Origin: Lysobacterales bacterium
GTDB taxonomy: Bacteria; Pseudomonadota; Gammaproteobacteria; Xanthomonadales; Rhodanobacteraceae
DNA length: 64,000 bases
Reading direction: 5' to 3'
Assembly (NCBI GenBank): GCA_017305055.1
Contig: JAFKMZ010000011.1
Coordinates: forward strand, 67,702-131,701
Under the pieces are notes generated by a model. It did not search any database and was not told where the DNA came from. It saw only the letters and a program-made list of their open reading frames with translations. Made by a program: the position numbers and the translations under genes. Numbering within the stretch: the first letter of the stretch is position 1; every line of letters starts with the position of its first letter. Shown one piece after another: positions 40,812 through 53,513 of the stretch.

Positions 40812-40942
40812 GGCCAAGTCTCGAGCAATGCATCGATACTAGCCGAGGCGGCCACGCACTGTCATATGGACGCCGCCATGCTCGTGGCGGCCAGCGGTAG
40901 CCTGGATGACTCGGGGCGAGTCCTGTCGATTGGGAGTTGGCG

Positions 40943-41833
40943 ATGTCTTTGCAGTTGCCCTGGTTGCAGCTGGACGTGTTTTCGGACCGCCTGTTTGCCG
41001 GCAATCCGCTGGCGGTGGTGCTGGATGCCGGGACCCTGGATGCGGTGCAGATGCAGCGCGTCGCACGCTGGACGAATCTTTCCGAGACCGCGTTTCTGCT
41101 GCCGGTGACCGATCCGGCGGCGGACTATCACGTGCGCATCTTCACTCCGCGCCAGGAGCTGCCGTATGCGGGTCACCCCAGCGTCGGTGCCGCGTATGCC
41201 GCGCTGGATGCCGGCATGGTCGGTGCCGGCAAATCCCGCCTGGTGCAGCAGTGTGCCGCCGGCTTGCTGCCGGTGCAGGTCGAGGGCACGGGCGCAGCGT
41301 GCATCATCCACGTGCAGGCGCCTGCTGCGCGGCTGCGCGAACATGACACCACCGCCATGCAGCGTCTGGCCGCGTCCCTGGGCGCGCCGCTCGAGCCGGG
41401 CCGCTGGCGCGAGGTGGACAACGGGCCGCGCTGGCTGGTCTGCGACCTGGGCCAGGCGGCCGTGGTGCGGGCGCTGCATCCCGACATGGCGGCGTTGGCG
41501 GCACTGAGTATGGACTGGTCGGTGATCGGTGCCTGTGTCTTCGGCCGTGAGCCGGAGGGCGCGGTGGCGATGGCGGTGCGCGCGTTCTGCCCGGCCGACG
41601 GCATCCCCGAGGATCCGGTGACCGGCAGCGCGAATGCGGCGATCGCCGCCTACCTGCAGGCCACCGGTGGCCTGGGCCTTTATGGCCGGCAGTGGCGGGC
41701 GAGCCAGGGCCGCGAGGTCGGTCGCGATGGCTACCTGGAGGTGCGTGTCGACGGGGACGGCGGCGCGATCAGCGTGGGTGGCGCCTGCTGCATCGGTGTG
41801 CGTGGCATGTTGCGGCTCGACGCAGCTTCCTGA
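40943..41833 (+). CDS. PhzF-family epimerase/isomerase-like protein
   Basis: A 296-residue protein of the PhzF family (diaminopimelate-epimerase fold). The opening LDVFSDRLFAGNPLAVVLD, the catalytic Glu in NLSETAFLLP near residue 48, TPRQELPYAGHPSVGAAYA near 75, and EDPVTGSANAA near 230 are all characteristic. Apart from phenazine synthesis, most members have unknown substrates, and no phenazine genes are present here, so a generic isomerase is the safe call. The ATG at 40943 is six nt after GGGAG. Confidence 0.88.
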   Translation: MSLQLPWLQLDVFSDRLFAGNPLAVVLDAGTLDAVQMQRVARWTNLSETAFLLPVTDPAADYHVRIFTPRQELPYAGHPSVGAAYAALDAGMVGAGKSRLVQQCAAGLLPVQVEGTGAACIIHVQAPAARLREHDTTAMQRLAASLGAPLEPGRWREVDNGPRWLVCDLGQAAVVRALHPDMAALAALSMDWSVIGACVFGREPEGAVAMAVRAFCPADGIPEDPVTGSANAAIAAYLQATGGLGLYGRQWRASQGREVGRDGYLEVRVDGDGGAISVGGACCIGVRGMLRLDAAS

Positions 41834-41982: not shown

Positions 41983-42519
41983 ATGCTGGCCGCGCAAGCA
42001 CAGGTCCTGCCGATTGCACCAGAGGACACGATCGTCCCCGACAAGGTGCGCGCGGCCATCGACGTGCTGATCAACGGCGAGCATTTCCGCCACACCGGCG
42101 ACCCGAAGCTGCCCCTGCTCTGGTACCTGCGTGATGTGCTGCGCCTGACCGGCACCAAGATTGCCGGCGAGCTGGCCAGCAGCGGCGCCGACCTGGTGCT
42201 CGTGGCTGGCAAACCCGTTCCTGCCGCGGGTGTGACCATCGAGCAGCTGGCCGGGCGCGAGGTACTCACCGTGGAAGGCCTGGCGGCCAACGACGGCACC
42301 CTGCATCCGCTGCAACAGGCCTTCATCGACGAGGACGCGATCGGCTGCGGCTATTGCACGCCGGGGTGGCTGATCTCCGGTGTCGCCCTGCTCCAGCGCA
42401 AGCCGCAACCCACCGACGACGACATCGACCAGTTGCCGAACGTATGCCGTTGTGGCTGCCAGACGCGCGTGCGCCGCGCGATCAAGCGTGCCGCCGCGGG
42501 CAAGGCCAACGTGGCATGA
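41983..42519 (+). CDS. Molybdenum-hydroxylase-type small subunit lacking its ferredoxin cluster ligands
   Basis: A 178-residue relative of the [2Fe-2S] subunit of isoquinoline oxidoreductase/aldehyde oxidoreductases (IorA, CoxS group). The C-terminal helical domain keeps its cluster ligands: C122-x2-C125 and C155-x-C157 (GCGYC, VCRCGC). The N-terminal plant-ferredoxin domain aligns without gaps over GTKIAGELASSGADLVLVAG, but each of its four Cys is replaced: G62, S67, D70 and A82. Other frames over this stretch do not restore the cysteines, so it is a true loss. The start ATG at 41983 follows GGAGGAG by six nt. It overlaps the large-subunit gene by four nt. It may bind one cluster, with no outer cluster to pass electrons on. 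Confidence 0.85.
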   Translation: MLAAQAQVLPIAPEDTIVPDKVRAAIDVLINGEHFRHTGDPKLPLLWYLRDVLRLTGTKIAGELASSGADLVLVAGKPVPAAGVTIEQLAGREVLTVEGLAANDGTLHPLQQAFIDEDAIGCGYCTPGWLISGVALLQRKPQPTDDDIDQLPNVCRCGCQTRVRRAIKRAAAGKANVA

Positions 42520-44786
42520 GCGTGGTGGATGGACCGCTGCCGTATCTGCGCCTGTCACGCCGGCGCTTCCTGCAGGTGCTGGCCGGTGGCGCCGGCGTGC
42601 TGATGGTCGGCATCGGCCAGGCGCGTGCCGATGCGCCGCCGCTGCCTCCCGGCCTGCTCGGCGACAACTTCCATGCCCTCGGTGCCTACGTGCGCATCGA
42701 TGCCGAGGGCAACGTGCTGATCGGTGCGCGCGATCCGGATACCGGCACCGGTGTGGCCACCTCCCTGCCGCTGATCATTGCCGAGGAGATGGATGCCGAC
42801 TGGAACCGCGTCAGCGTGGTGCCGCTGGGCCTGGACGTCAGCGACGCCAACGGCCAGCCGCGCTGGACGTATGGCCGCCAGCTTGGCGGCACCGGTACCT
42901 CGATTCCCGCGGCGTGGGCCGACCTGCGCCCGGTCGGCGCGCTGGTGCGCTGGATGCTGCTGCAGGCGGCAGCGACCCGGTTGGGCGTGAAGGCCGAGCG
43001 CCTGCGTTGCGAATCGGGGACGGTCATTGCGCCGGACGGCCGCCGCGTCACCTATGGCAGCCTGGCCGGCGCCGCGAGCGATGTGGCCTTGCCCGGCCAG
43101 GTGCCGCCGCTCAAGTCGCCACAGCAGTATCGACTGATCGGCCGCGATGCCGGGGATGTCGATGCCCGCGCCATGGTGACCGGCCAGCTGCGCTTTGCCA
43201 TCGACGAGCGTCCGGGTGATTTCCTGGTAGCCGTGCTGGCTCAATGCCCCTGGCCTGACGGCACGCTGGCCGAACTCGACAGCAAGGAGGCGCTGGCCGT
43301 CGACGGCGTGGCCAAGGTGCTCCGTATCACCCCCGAGCCCGGCCTGCCCTGGGGCAGCACGGCAATCGCGCCAGCCGTCGCCGTGCTGGCCACGAGCACC
43401 TGGTCTGCGCTGCAGGGCCGGAGCAAGCTCAAGCTGACGTGGCACCCTGGCCCCAGCGCCAGCGAGGACAGCGGGGTGCTGGAGCAGCAGGCGTCCAAGC
43501 TGCTGGACGGCCAAACCGATCCGACCATGCGCGTGCGCAACGACGGCGACGTGGACGCCGCCGGCAAGCACGCCGCGCGCCGCTTCGATGCCACCTACTT
43601 CCAGCCTTGGCTGGCACACGCCACCGCCGAGCCGATGAACTGCATCGTGCGCCTGGACAAGGACCAGGCCCAGCTCGTGGTCCCGACACAGGCGCCGCAG
43701 CAGGCCTGGTCGGTGGTGCGGCGCCTGACCGGCCTGGCACCGGCGCAGATCGACATCCAGGTGCCACGCGTGGGCGGTGGCTACGGACGCCGCCTGGATC
43801 ACGACTACGTGGCCGAGGCGGTGATGCTGGCCAAGGCGGTCGACAAGACCGTGTGCCTGTGGTGGTCGCGCGAGCAGGACCTGGCCCACGACTACTACCA
43901 GCCCGGTTGCGTGCACCGGCTGGAGGCGATCGTCGACCGCAAGCGCGACGTGATTGCCTGGACCCAGCGCATGGCCAGCGCTTCGGCCACGGCGCGCCGC
44001 GGGGTTCCCGACGCCCGCCTGTGGGCCTCCGAGCTGCGTGCCACGCAGATGCCTGCCGCGCTGGTCCCCAACTACCGCAGCGACTGGTATGCGCTCTCCA
44101 GCGCCGTGCCGCGTGGGCCCATGCGCGGCGCGCCCGACGTGGCCAACGCCTTCGTGGTGGAGAGCTTCATCGACGAGATCGCGCACCAGCTGCGCGAGAA
44201 TCCATTGGCGTTCAAGCAGCGCCTGCTGGGCGAGCCGCGCCAGCTGCCGCTGGGCGACGGCAGCACGCTCGACATCGGCCGCCTGCGCAACGTGCTGGAG
44301 CTGGTTGCCGAGCGCATCGGCTGGAAGGACTGGCTGCACAGCGTGAATGGGCTCGGGCTTGCCTGCTGGCATCTCGGTGGCGCCTACGTGGCGCACGCAG
44401 TGGAGGTGGCCGTGGATGGCGAGCGTTTGGTCATTCAGCGCGTGGTCTGCGCGGTGGACGTCGGCCGTGTCATCAACCGATTGGGATTGGCCGACCAGGT
44501 CGCCGGCGCGACGCTCGATGCGATGTCCAACGCCTTGAACCTGGCGATCACCTTCAAGGGCGGGCGCATCCAGCAGCAGACCCTGGCCGACTACCCGCTG
44601 GCCAGCATGGCGCAGCTGCCCAATGACGTCGAGGTCATCACCGTCCCGGGCGACCGTCCACCAACGGGGGCGAGCTTCCTCGCCATGCCGAGCGCGGCGC
44701 CGGCCCTGGCCAACGCAGTGTTCCGCGCCAGCGCCGTGCGCGTGCGCCGCCTGCCGCTGCTGGCGGAATGGGAGCGCTTGCGCTAG
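42516..44786 (+). CDS. IorB-like molybdopterin subunit with altered active site
   Basis: A 756-residue homologue of the large molybdenum-cofactor subunit of xanthine-oxidase-family enzymes (IorB subgroup). A Tat signal (SRRRFLQ, residues 14-20, then a hydrophobic run) sends it to the periplasm with the small subunit as passenger. Family landmarks are kept: SLPLIIAEEMDADW, VGGGYGRRLDHDYVAEA, RGPMRGAP, VVCAVDVGRVIN. Key residues are not. The cofactor motif GQG reads GTG (T78), and in the C-terminal GEP motif the catalytic Glu aligns with F721 (PPTGASFLAMP). Such a protein is unlikely to hydroxylate substrates in the usual way. The frame is intact over 2.27 kb, so it is under selection for some role. 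No cytochrome or XdhC-type maturation gene is adjacent. Confidence 0.85.
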   Translation: MSVVDGPLPYLRLSRRRFLQVLAGGAGVLMVGIGQARADAPPLPPGLLGDNFHALGAYVRIDAEGNVLIGARDPDTGTGVATSLPLIIAEEMDADWNRVSVVPLGLDVSDANGQPRWTYGRQLGGTGTSIPAAWADLRPVGALVRWMLLQAAATRLGVKAERLRCESGTVIAPDGRRVTYGSLAGAASDVALPGQVPPLKSPQQYRLIGRDAGDVDARAMVTGQLRFAIDERPGDFLVAVLAQCPWPDGTLAELDSKEALAVDGVAKVLRITPEPGLPWGSTAIAPAVAVLATSTWSALQGRSKLKLTWHPGPSASEDSGVLEQQASKLLDGQTDPTMRVRNDGDVDAAGKHAARRFDATYFQPWLAHATAEPMNCIVRLDKDQAQLVVPTQAPQQAWSVVRRLTGLAPAQIDIQVPRVGGGYGRRLDHDYVAEAVMLAKAVDKTVCLWWSREQDLAHDYYQPGCVHRLEAIVDRKRDVIAWTQRMASASATARRGVPDARLWASELRATQMPAALVPNYRSDWYALSSAVPRGPMRGAPDVANAFVVESFIDEIAHQLRENPLAFKQRLLGEPRQLPLGDGSTLDIGRLRNVLELVAERIGWKDWLHSVNGLGLACWHLGGAYVAHAVEVAVDGERLVIQRVVCAVDVGRVINRLGLADQVAGATLDAMSNALNLAITFKGGRIQQQTLADYPLASMAQLPNDVEVITVPGDRPPTGASFLAMPSAAPALANAVFRASAVRVRRLPLLAEWERLR

Positions 44787-44860: not shown

Positions 44861-45604
44861 TCAGCGCAGGCGCAGGACGAGTTGGGTGACGCTGAGTGCA
44901 ATGATCAGGCTGCCCACGGCCACCAGCATCACCCGCTCCGGCAGGTGGCGCACCAGCCAGGCGGCAAATGGGGCGGCGATCGTTCCGCCGACGAGCAGGC
45001 CAAGCACGATCGACCAGTGGCCGATGCCGATATGCCAGGCCAAGGCGCCCGCCACACAGGTGGTGACCACGAATTCGGCGGCGTTCACCGAACCGATCGT
45101 GCGGCGCACATTGCCGCCCCGGGCCACGAGGGTGCTGGTGGCGATCGGCCCCCAGCCGCCGCCGCCCATCGCATCGAGCGCGCCGGCAACCAGGCCGAGC
45201 CACCCGGGATGACGCACCCGATGGCGTGACAGACGCTTGCCGAATGCGCGCGACAACACCATGACGCCGAGGATCAGCAGGTAAATGACGACGAGTGGAC
45301 GGATCGTCTCGCCAGGCACGTTGGCGAGCACCGTCGCGCCGAGGATGCCGCCGATCGCGCCCGGGATGGCCAGTTGCCGGAACAGCTTCCAGCTGACGTT
45401 GCCGAACCAGGCATGGGCGGCGCCGGAGGCACCGGTGGTGAAGACCTCGGCCGTGTGCACCGTGGCGCTGGCCACCGCGGGCGGCAAGCCGAGCGCCAGC
45501 AGGATCGAGCTGGACACCAGGCCGTAGGCCATGCCCAGCGCACCGTCGACCAGTTGCGCGAACAGGCCGATACCCACGAAAAGGAAGAAATGAGCCAGGT
45601 CCAT
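44861..45604 (-). CDS. TSUP-family (TauE/SafE) membrane transporter
   Basis: A 247-residue integral membrane protein with about eight hydrophobic segments, of the sulfite exporter TauE/SafE (TSUP) family. These carry sulfur-containing or other small anions across the inner membrane. The duplicated motif LVDGALGMAYGLVSSSILL (N-terminal half) and LVAGALDAMGGGGWGPI (C-terminal half) is diagnostic. Substrate cannot be assigned. The ATG at 45604 (MDLAHFF) is preferred over upstream in-frame codons that encode a Pro/Arg-rich, untypical stretch. It diverges from dgcN and converges on the molybdopterin-type operon. Confidence 0.88.
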   Translation of the reverse strand: MDLAHFFLFVGIGLFAQLVDGALGMAYGLVSSSILLALGLPPAVASATVHTAEVFTTGASGAAHAWFGNVSWKLFRQLAIPGAIGGILGATVLANVPGETIRPLVVIYLLILGVMVLSRAFGKRLSRHRVRHPGWLGLVAGALDAMGGGGWGPIATSTLVARGGNVRRTIGSVNAAEFVVTTCVAGALAWHIGIGHWSIVLGLLVGGTIAAPFAAWLVRHLPERVMLVAVGSLIIALSVTQLVLRLR

Positions 45605-45814
45605 ATTGCGTCTGCGTGCACTGCCACCAGGCGGTCCCGGCGTGCCGGACCGCCTGCGTGATGGATCGGTCGGGTCAGGCGCCACTTTGCCACGCCAGGC
45701 TGGCGCTGCCTATCCGCGCCGGCAGCACCCCTTACTTCGCACCTGGCGCAGGCCTAGACTGACGGACTTGCGCCGCGCGACCGCGCCAGGCGCCATCGAC
45801 CCAGGAACGATCCC

Positions 45815-46849
45815 ATGCCTGTTGCCCTCCGTGCACCGTACCTGTTGTTTCTCGGCGACGTACCCGCGGCATCCGATGCCAAGACCGCGGCCGGTATCGC
45901 GCATTGGCGCCGTGAGCTGTGCTGTGGGCAGCTGCGGCTTCCGGGATGCCAGGCCGACGTCGGATTGCCCGATGTCAGCCTGGCGCAGGCCAGGGAGCGT
46001 GGCGCGCAAAGCCTGGTCATCGGCATTGCGCCGGTCGGCGGTGCGTTTGCCCCGTCGTGGCTGGAGACCATGCGCGAGGCCGCGCGCCTGGGCCTGGACA
46101 TCGTCAGCGGCATGCACGCCCCGCTGCGCGAGGTTCCGGGGCTGGCGGAACTGGCGGCGGCCTCTGGCGCCCGCCTGGTCGACGTGCGCGTACCGCCGGA
46201 GCATTTGCCGGTGGGCACGGGCGCCAAGCGTTCCGGCCATCGCCTGCTGACCGTGGGCACCGACTGCGCGGTGGGCAAGAAATACACCGCGCTGTCGATC
46301 GATCGCGCCTTGCGCGCGCGCGGTCGCGACTCCACCTTCCGCGCCACCGGGCAGACCGGCATCATGCTTGCCGGTGCCGGCATCCCGATCGATGCGGTGG
46401 TCAGCGATTTCGTCGCCGGTGCGGCCGAGGTGCTGTCCCCGGCCAACGCGCCCGGGCACTGGGATGTCGTGGAGGGACAGGGCTCGCTGTTCCATCCGGG
46501 CTTTGCCGCGGTCACGCTCGGCCTGCTGCACGGTACGCAGCCGGATGCGCTGGTGCTGTGCCACGACCTGGCGCGCAGCACGATCGAGGATCTGCCGGAC
46601 TTCTCCATCCCGCCGCTCGCGACCTGCATCGCGCGCTACGTGGAGGCGGCGCGGCTGACCAATGCCGTGGTGCGCTGCATCGGCGTGGCGGTGAACGCTT
46701 CGAGCCTGGGCACGGCCGAATATGCGCGACGGCGCGCGGCAATCGAGGCCGAGACCGGCCTGCCTTGCGTCGACCCGATCCGGGACGGCGTCGAGGTCCT
46801 GGTGGATGCACTGGATGCCGCCTTCGGCACCGCCGGAGCGGCGGCATGA
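45815..46849 (+). CDS. dgcN: DgcN-like D-glutamate N-acetyltransferase (DUF1611)
   Basis: A 344-residue cytosolic protein of the DUF1611 family. Members described as DgcN acetylate D-glutamate, and the partner DgcA racemises the N-acetyl product on the way to L-glutamate. An N-terminal Rossmann-like part (LLFLGDVPAASDAKTAAGI) and a P-loop-like segment GTDCAVGKKYTAL near residue 147 are typical, followed by FRATGQTGIM and a conserved GQGSLFHPG near 226. The ATG at 45815 follows AGGAA by seven nt. It overlaps dgcA by ATGA, the usual arrangement of this pair. The assignment follows the family and gene pair. Confidence 0.82.
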   Translation: MPVALRAPYLLFLGDVPAASDAKTAAGIAHWRRELCCGQLRLPGCQADVGLPDVSLAQARERGAQSLVIGIAPVGGAFAPSWLETMREAARLGLDIVSGMHAPLREVPGLAELAAASGARLVDVRVPPEHLPVGTGAKRSGHRLLTVGTDCAVGKKYTALSIDRALRARGRDSTFRATGQTGIMLAGAGIPIDAVVSDFVAGAAEVLSPANAPGHWDVVEGQGSLFHPGFAAVTLGLLHGTQPDALVLCHDLARSTIEDLPDFSIPPLATCIARYVEAARLTNAVVRCIGVAVNASSLGTAEYARRRAAIEAETGLPCVDPIRDGVEVLVDALDAAFGTAGAAA

Positions 46850-52032: not shown

Positions 52033-53385
52033 TCATTGGCCGTCGCGCGGACTTGGCGTGGCATGGCGCCCCGACCACCAGCGCCAGATGTAGTAGACCG
52101 GGACACCCATGGCGGTGATGAGCAGGCTCATGCCGGCGTTGCCCGGGGAATAGATGGCGCTGGCCACGATCACCGCGAACACGGTGAGCACGAACAGCAA
52201 CGGCAGCAGCGGGTAAAACGGCACACGGTACGGTGCCGGCTGGTCGATGAAATGCTTGCGGTACCAGAACAGCGTGCCGACACCGAACATGTGCCCCAGG
52301 TATTCACCCACGGTGGTGTAGTTGAGCAGGGCGTTGAAGCTGCCTGACCACGCCAGGACGATGGCCCACGCACCGAGCACGGCCAGGGCGACCTGTGGTG
52401 CACGGGTGCGTATTTCGACCCGCCCCACCGCGCGGAAGAACAGGCCATCGGCAGCCATGGTCTGCAGCACGCGGGCCCCCCCGGCAATCGCGATGGTGCA
52501 GTAGCCGAAGGTCGAGCAGGCGATGCCGACGGCAATCACGGTGGCGCCGTGGTCGCCAAACAACTTGCGCATCAGGTCCGCGGCAGGCGCCGTGCTGGCG
52601 GCAAGGCCGGCGTGCCCCAGTCCCGCCAGGTAGGCGAAATTGGCCAGCACGTAACAGGCCATGACGCCGCCTATGCCCAAGGCCAACGCGCGAGGAAGCG
52701 TGACCTGCGGGTTGCGCACCTCGCCGGCCAGGTCGTTCAAGTAGTGGAAGCCGCTGTAGGTGAACAGCACCGGCATCAGCGCGCCGACGAAGCTCCAGCG
52801 TGACAGCGGTACCGCGGGATCCGCCATCCAGGCCAGGCCAAGGTGGTCGTGTCCGATGACCAGCCCGGCGACGACCAGCAAGGTAATGGCGACCAGCTTC
52901 AGCATGGTGAAAATGTTCAGCATCCAGGCGCCGGCGCGGATGCCGAACAGGTTGATGCCGACGATGAAGACGATCGCGCCGACCGCGAGCGGCTTGGCAT
53001 AGAGCGGCGAGGGCAAGCCAAGCGCGGCGCACAGGTATTCGGCAAACACCGTGGCGACGGCGGCGATGCTGCCCGGGTAGTTGACCAGGGCCATGGTCCA
53101 GCCGAACAGGAAGGCCGGCAGCAGGCCGAACGCCTCGCGCAGGTAGATGTAGATGCCGCCGGTCTCCGGCCGCCGCGCGCCAAGTTCGCCGTAGCACAGC
53201 ACGCCGGCCAGGGTCAGCAGGCCGGCAATCACCCACAGCGAGAGGTCCACCACCGGCGAGGCGTGCTGGGCGACGCTGGCGGGGGTGAGGAAGATGCCGG
53301 CACCGATGATGCCGCCGATGACGATCATCGAGGCATCCCACGTGTTCAGCCGACGCAGATAGCTCGGTGTGGTCATTGCGGGCAT
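52033..53385 (-). CDS. APC-superfamily amino acid permease
   Basis: A 450-residue inner-membrane permease with 12 predicted spans. The APC signature IGGIIGAGIFLTPASVAQHA near residue 28 (helix I unwound segment), TGGIYIYLREAFG near 83, and the helix VI region FTYSGFHYLNDLAGEVRNP near 205 identify the LAT/APA-like group of amino acid transporters and exchangers. The ATG at 53385 (MPAMTT) is chosen for the GGGGGA site nine nt upstream; an ATG at 53376 is possible. Position between dapF and the serine hydrolase suggests it carries amino acids freed from peptides. Confidence 0.88.
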   Translation of the reverse strand: MPAMTTPSYLRRLNTWDASMIVIGGIIGAGIFLTPASVAQHASPVVDLSLWVIAGLLTLAGVLCYGELGARRPETGGIYIYLREAFGLLPAFLFGWTMALVNYPGSIAAVATVFAEYLCAALGLPSPLYAKPLAVGAIVFIVGINLFGIRAGAWMLNIFTMLKLVAITLLVVAGLVIGHDHLGLAWMADPAVPLSRWSFVGALMPVLFTYSGFHYLNDLAGEVRNPQVTLPRALALGIGGVMACYVLANFAYLAGLGHAGLAASTAPAADLMRKLFGDHGATVIAVGIACSTFGYCTIAIAGGARVLQTMAADGLFFRAVGRVEIRTRAPQVALAVLGAWAIVLAWSGSFNALLNYTTVGEYLGHMFGVGTLFWYRKHFIDQPAPYRVPFYPLLPLLFVLTVFAVIVASAIYSPGNAGMSLLITAMGVPVYYIWRWWSGRHATPSPRDGQ

Positions 53386-53513
53386 GGCAGCCGGTCCCCC
53401 ATCCAATGCCTGGGAAGGTTTGGTTTCTTGCTGGCCCCCGGCAACGCGTAGCGACAGCGGGTGCCTAACGGCGCGACATCGGACGCGCCACGATCAAATG
53501 CACGCCCGCGCGG

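Follow-up and report, generated by a model that had tools for sequence, protein, structure and literature searches.

The DNA considered here (the window) is a 64,000-nucleotide stretch of a Lysobacterales bacterium of the Rhodanobacteraceae (GenBank assembly GCA_017305055.1, contig JAFKMZ010000011.1, positions 67,702 to 131,701 of the forward strand), and our subject is a pair of overlapping genes within it whose large-subunit product belongs by homology and fold to the xanthine oxidase family. Isoquinoline 1-oxidoreductase, IorAB, combines a small [2Fe-2S] subunit with a large molybdopterin-type subunit; the window pair has the same composition, but unlike IorAB it has lost the catalytic Glu, the GQG motif, and the plant-type cluster. 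Judging from sequence comparison, we consider it likely that the two proteins form a periplasmic [2Fe-2S] heterodimer that contains no molybdenum, does not hydroxylate, and is maintained by selection for a different role. The features of the pair are listed below, where “Phe-type” denotes orthologues that, like the window's own, have Phe in place of the catalytic Glu.

41983..42519, + strand: small subunit, 178 amino acids (aa), with Fer2_2 as its only Pfam match
42154..42231, + strand: region corresponding to the plant-type [2Fe-2S] cluster (residues 58–83), without cysteine here and in 114/114 readable Phe-type rows
42346..42453, + strand: proximal [2Fe-2S] cysteines C122, C125, C155, and C157, kept here, in 114/114 readable Phe-type rows, and in 214/216 readable rows overall
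42516..44786, + strand: large subunit, an IorB-type MoCoBD protein of the Phe-type (catalytic Glu replaced), 756 aa plus stop
42549..42632, + strand: twin-arginine translocation (Tat) signal region, judged by eye with no signal predictor; RR conserved in 114 of the 115 rows of the Phe-type, the G181 row not extending to it
42738..42755, + strand: former GQG motif (residues 75–80), now GTG with T78; Thr in 110, Ser in 3, and unread in 2 of the 115 Phe-type rows
44658..44690, + strand: former catalytic-Glu motif (residues 715–725), now PPTGASFLAMP with F721, placed by alignment

The large subunit has LSRRRFLQV near its N-terminus, contains two MoCoBD domains, and carries DTGTGVAT, in which GTG occupies residues 77–79; in this family the GQG motif sits next to the metal. 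In pairwise alignment with the membrane-bound aldehyde dehydrogenase of Gluconobacter oxydans (PDB 8gy3, chains C and B), PTGASFLA of the window pair stands opposite PTGLGEPG of 8gy3_C, so that F721 faces the catalytic Glu. Several multiple alignments give the identical register, with graded intermediates, and an alignment or annotation artefact, for which we found no argument, has a negligible chance of being the explanation. In the small subunit, Pfam places Fer2_2 at residues 96–168 and does not match the plant-type Fer2; all four plant-type cysteines are gone, and the proximal CGYC and CRC are intact. A CO dehydrogenase lacking Mo-pyranopterin according to its entry title (1ffu) is among the small-subunit matches, and xanthine-oxidase-type enzymes are therefore able to assemble without Mo-pyranopterin. 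No signal peptide is visible by eye in the small subunit, which presumably is exported together with the Tat-bearing large subunit. Its stop codon overlaps the large-subunit start as ATGA, and among 114 Phe-type orthologues the small-subunit gene ends in ATGA in 107, in GTGA in 6, and in ATAA in 1. The predicted folds of the pair are retained.

The window's genome (a 3.5 Mb assembly of 108 contigs, 97% complete) has a single match each to PF02738 and PF01799, both of them the window pair, and cover of the altered pair by a normal paralogue is thereby ruled out. These observations uphold much of the first-pass annotation, which had placed F721 in the catalytic-Glu column, read GTG for GQG, described both frames, the ATGA overlap, and the Tat signal as intact, raised the matter of a normal paralogue, and called the small subunit cluster-poor, a description that can now be made exact. 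By its sequence, the pair is a variant member of the xanthine oxidase family, lacking four of the defining features examined: the catalytic Glu (F721), GQG (T78), the two [2Fe-2S] clusters, and XdhC in the host.

The pair has matches in 227 of 233 Rhodanobacteraceae genomes, and in 191 of 192 when only good-quality genomes are counted; a second collection names Rhodanobacter, Dyella, Frateuria, and Oleiagrimonas as near relatives, which makes Rhodanobacter the most likely genus for the window. Orthologue rows were read for 223 of the 227 (G042, G114, and G097 were not fetched, and the G092 match was treated as a paralogue), six of them partial at one of the two motifs. The catalytic column of these 223 holds Phe in 115, spread over 14 genus groups, Glu in 39, and one Leu (G165), which was counted as non-Glu. 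Rows that read GEG at the former GQG motif (n = 28) have Val in 23, Ile in 2, and Gly, Thr, and Glu in one each, and retain the four plant-type cysteines in 27/27 readable small subunits. The single Glu within the GEG group, in G145 (L243), lies in GASELAMP and was either kept or regained. Rows with GQG (n = 73) have Glu in 35, Asp in 20, Ala in 6, a gap in 6, Thr in 3, and Asn, His, and Pro in one each. Glu is found in 63 of 64 outgroup loci, the remaining one being cut (L285, whose match is not a single plain stretch, was excluded), and in 77 of the 78 paralogue and outgroup rows that were not selected by residue, with a gap in the other. A scan of viral contigs returned 62 pattern stretches, with no relative of the pair among them.

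On a tree of 164 rows, thinned by group, the states fall into a graded series from GQG/Glu through GEG/Val to GTG/Phe. Glu was lost separately in four or five places: in part of g24, in part of g4/g5, in part of g18, and once or twice in the clade that unites g2, g20, g21, and g17 with the Phe-type genera. Parsimony counts 6 changes of Glu on this tree and 8 on a 219-row FastTree, counts in which gains and losses are indistinguishable. Complete loss of the plant-type cysteines is confined to the Phe clade and came later than the alteration of GQG and Glu; outside that clade, partial cysteine loss is seen in a few rows (G019 and G021). The E/F and Q/T changes proposed earlier for this one locus are thus real but not specific to its genome, being shared by much of the Rhodanobacteraceae, and the three functional sites described as independent have all changed, but in an order, with the cysteines last.

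Selection on the pair was measured as the median pairwise ratio of nonsynonymous to synonymous substitution rates (dN/dS, NG86). For the large subunit, medians are 0.26 in Rhodanobacter, 0.15 in g6, and 0.17 in the GEG/Val group g17, with 0.19 and 0.28 in the Glu-keeping subsets of g25 and g24; over all groups measured, Phe-type medians of 0.15–0.33 are similar to those of Glu-keeping groups (0.19–0.35). Selection appears weaker in the non-Glu group of g5 (0.38 for the large subunit, also 0.41). Only two of the 115 Phe rows are shorter than 720 aa: that of G181, which meets a contig end, and that of G207 (L046), an otherwise typical Phe-type large subunit with a frame change near residue 149 that is either a sequencing error or a recent loss. 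G166, whose Phe column is unreadable, seems to change frame near residue 646. The pair has thus lost catalytic residues under purifying selection with frames mostly intact, the pattern of a pseudoenzyme under selection, and the view that it was repurposed intact after losing its catalytic site, to which the first-pass annotation had opposed dN/dS near 1 and frameshifts in sister strains, gains support. A lineage-specific pseudogene is ruled out by conservation across species.

Column by column, the Phe-type looks like the product of remodelling, not erosion. To the 78 paralogue and outgroup rows we added 38 Glu rows from within the family (selected for that Glu, so that their Glu column proves nothing), and found 127 columns with conservation of at least 85% across the Glu-type; of these, 109 are unchanged in the Phe-type and 18 are altered, including 78 (Q to T), 126–127 (GS to TG or similar), 423 (F to Y), and 720–721 (GE to SF). 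Counting the altered motif residues, 32 columns are newly invariant in the Phe-type. These columns bear on the proposal that the pair is a decaying relic, an enzyme made useless when molybdenum metabolism shrank and now on its way out. Broken genes in G021 and G008 (both split over two frames), the frame change of G207, proximal cysteines missing from G019 and G021, and the g5 ratios all agree with decay; set against them are the presence of Phe in 115 species, the newly invariant columns, the retained twin Arg and gene overlap, and Phe-type dN/dS medians that are alike in MoaC-negative (0.27) and MoaC-positive (0.25) genomes of Rhodanobacter. We regard a relic as very improbable.

Genes for the molybdenum cofactor (Moco) carry the argument from the altered site to the absence of molybdenum. 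XdhC is responsible for sulfuration and insertion of the cofactor in the xanthine oxidase family (PMC2997495). In the 233 genomes, XdhC (PF02625) was tallied in 132 and MoaC in 177, leaving 56 without the latter. XdhC is missing from 84/84 genomes in which a non-Glu orthologue is the sole PF02738 protein, and present in 37/39 Glu-keeping genomes and in 90 of the 97 non-Glu genomes with a further PF02738 match. MocA, called by hand on full-length TIGR03310 matches with E values of about 1e-18 or better, has a distribution resembling that of XdhC, on softer calls, the model's curated cut-off being reached in 0/233 genomes. The window's genome, at 97% completeness, has no PF02625 match; its best TIGR03310 match (1.4e-16) is among the weak ones; and it retains MoaA, MoaC, and MoeA. 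With neither XdhC nor a convincing MocA, the pair would probably bind no cofactor in this host.

MoeA and MoaA were tested in 61 genomes, including 8 MoaC-positive controls in which both were found (8/8). MoeA is present in four fragmented assemblies (G006, G012, G212, and G230), which appear to be incomplete rather than devoid of Moco. In 49 genomes carrying the altered pair, MoaA, MoaC, and MoeA were all undetected, and these genomes should therefore not make molybdopterin; 42 pass the quality bar, seven are single-contig, and 37 have the Phe-type. The catalytic Glu is lost in all 48 that are readable, and 43 of the 49 lack all three of XdhC, a MocA call, and a second PF02738 match (five others, G090, G129, G131, G177, and G204, have a second PF02738 match). 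MoaC-negative groups measured gave dN/dS of 0.16–0.32 for the two subunits together. It could be argued that the 49 hosts obtain or make molybdopterin by an unrecognised route and that the pair is enzymatically active, using an unusual base. New components of Moco biosynthesis are one possible explanation offered for orphan molybdoproteins in a survey (PMC6147048), but this route would require simultaneous replacement of MoaA, MoaC, and MoeA, and the catalytic Glu has gone from these same genomes as well; we give it hardly any weight. Because of the 49 genomes, the cofactor-binding scaffold that the first-pass annotation listed among its options is disfavoured. The molybdenum-free case rests on the existence of these Moco-less hosts, not on a correlation between Glu and cofactor genes.

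Several observations weigh against a molybdenum-free pair. A tree-corrected test of Glu loss against absence of XdhC, MocA, or MoaC had 7 independent pairs and a median p of 0.375–0.5, which is not significant. XdhC is missing from seven non-Glu genomes that have two PF02738 matches, and G004 and G008 (L065 and L133, motif GAYEMG) combine Glu and MoaC with no XdhC or MocA call, and may represent a form independent of XdhC or an intermediate. Within the 49, G144 combines XdhC with a MocA call and a second family member, hinting either at an assembly gap or at a Moco-less genome with a canonical-looking enzyme. The pair does decay in one branch, because G019 and G021 (L118 and L135) have lost the proximal cysteines and G021 is broken. 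The alignment behind the large-subunit model included canonical sequences. Finally, 131 of the 181 non-Glu orthologues, the window's own included, are in MoaC-positive genomes, so genomics leaves room for cofactor binding in those hosts.

This last point also favours a pair that binds molybdopterin without a cytosine nucleotide or sulfur ligand, inserted independently of XdhC, and catalyses a different reaction with Phe shaping the site. Such insertion has a precedent, in that molybdenum-bearing molybdopterin entered the Rhodobacter capsulatus xanthine dehydrogenase in E. coli without XdhC, poorly sulfurated (PMC2997495). Retention of MoaC, MoeA, and MoaA in the window's genome and the 109 unchanged columns point the same way. 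Against it stand the 49 altered-pair genomes without the three Moco genes, where dN/dS is similar, the replacement of the conserved GS at columns 126–127, and the loss of the electron-exporting distal cluster from every readable Phe-type small subunit. On balance we find this alternative unlikely, and favour the molybdenum-free heterodimer.

Four neighbouring genes of the window deserve mention.

40937..41833, + strand: PhzF-like isomerase gene (PF02567), just upstream of the pair, in the position held by an amino-acid permease in most relatives of the Rhodanobacter group
44861-45685, − strand: TauE/SafE-type exporter gene, convergent with the pair and unmatched in the 15 named loci compared
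45815-46849, + strand: DUF1611 gene, near the pair
52033-53406, − strand: second APC permease, 57% to the operon permease

In relatives, an APC-type amino-acid permease gene lies upstream of the pair in 41/43 rows of the window's genus and 153/218 rows overall, counts limited to the sequence available upstream of the small subunit. It occurs in at least one row of 21/25 genus groups (none in g2, g3, g4, and g22) and adjoins the pair in 12/15 of the nearest named loci. Among 65 outgroup loci, several of them with little upstream sequence, a similar gene is encoded on the opposite strand in two, and the family arrangement occurs in none. The window's genome is missing the orthologous permease, its best match being 58% as compared to 85% in G186 and 86% in G149, and a strict need for an upstream permease is ruled out by this genome, leaving the permease as a lead to function. 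The second APC permease and the PhzF-like and DUF1611 genes are possible amino-acid links near the pair. As compared to the 8gy3 enzyme, the genes flanking the window pair are PhzF-like and TauE-like; no search was made for a cytochrome partner.

The history that we envisage begins with a molybdo-hydroxylase of the xanthine oxidase family, periplasmic and built of two subunits. Its descendants would co-fold in the cytoplasm around the sole remaining proximal (Fer2_2) [2Fe-2S] cluster, which we expect to be present, and would be exported through the Tat signal of the large subunit; kept Tat export fits a protein that folds with its cluster inside the cell. Hydroxylase chemistry would have gone with the replacement of the starting base Glu by Phe and of the GQG Gln by Thr, in many hosts the cofactor apparently cannot be made, and with the distal cluster the route by which electrons exit would have been lost. 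In the mouse enzyme, exchange of the corresponding Glu for Gln left an inactive protein even though 60% of it was still loaded with cofactor (PMC2671166). A lone proximal cluster, flanked by no redox partner on one side or the other, would be better suited to a role in structure or sensing than to turnover. What selection maintains would then be a scaffold with a remodelled pocket, and our working guess is that it binds or senses a small molecule, perhaps one resembling an amino acid, on the periplasmic side of the inner membrane, possibly in connection with the upstream permease. From the sequences we hold such a ligand role only tentatively, as a doubtful proposal. The ancestor may already have performed an additional task at the periplasmic face, independent of the cofactor and connected with the upstream permease, with only that task kept and the molybdenum chemistry discarded four or five times; this is a conjecture that we think somewhat less probable than its denial. 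If it is true, the pair would represent a new class of [2Fe-2S] proteins for binding or sensing that have the xanthine oxidase fold, are exported by Tat, and do without molybdenum.

Titles and abstract openings of the openly licensed literature, which make for a weak negative, contain, in line with the first-pass annotation, no description of the pair in Rhodanobacter, Dyella, or Luteibacter and none of a pseudo-molybdoenzyme; they also contain none of a family with a catalytic Phe at the position of F721. The nearest parallel is with the orphan molybdoproteins, reported without a complete Moco pathway in 292 + 13 bacteria; that survey reported no features at the level of sequence and asked for tests (PMC6147048). 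Like them, the pair places xanthine oxidase family genes in hosts without the pathway; unlike them, it forms a defined branch with Glu-to-Phe and Gln-to-Thr changes and the loss of four cluster cysteines. The branch therefore offers sequence marks for the orphan-molybdoprotein question, and its value lies in combining a defined branch, an evolutionary series from intact to altered, and hosts apparently unable to make the cofactor. For most of the Rhodanobacteraceae orthologues, the names isoquinoline oxidoreductase and xanthine dehydrogenase are misleading, and counts of molybdoenzymes made from domain hits may be too high.
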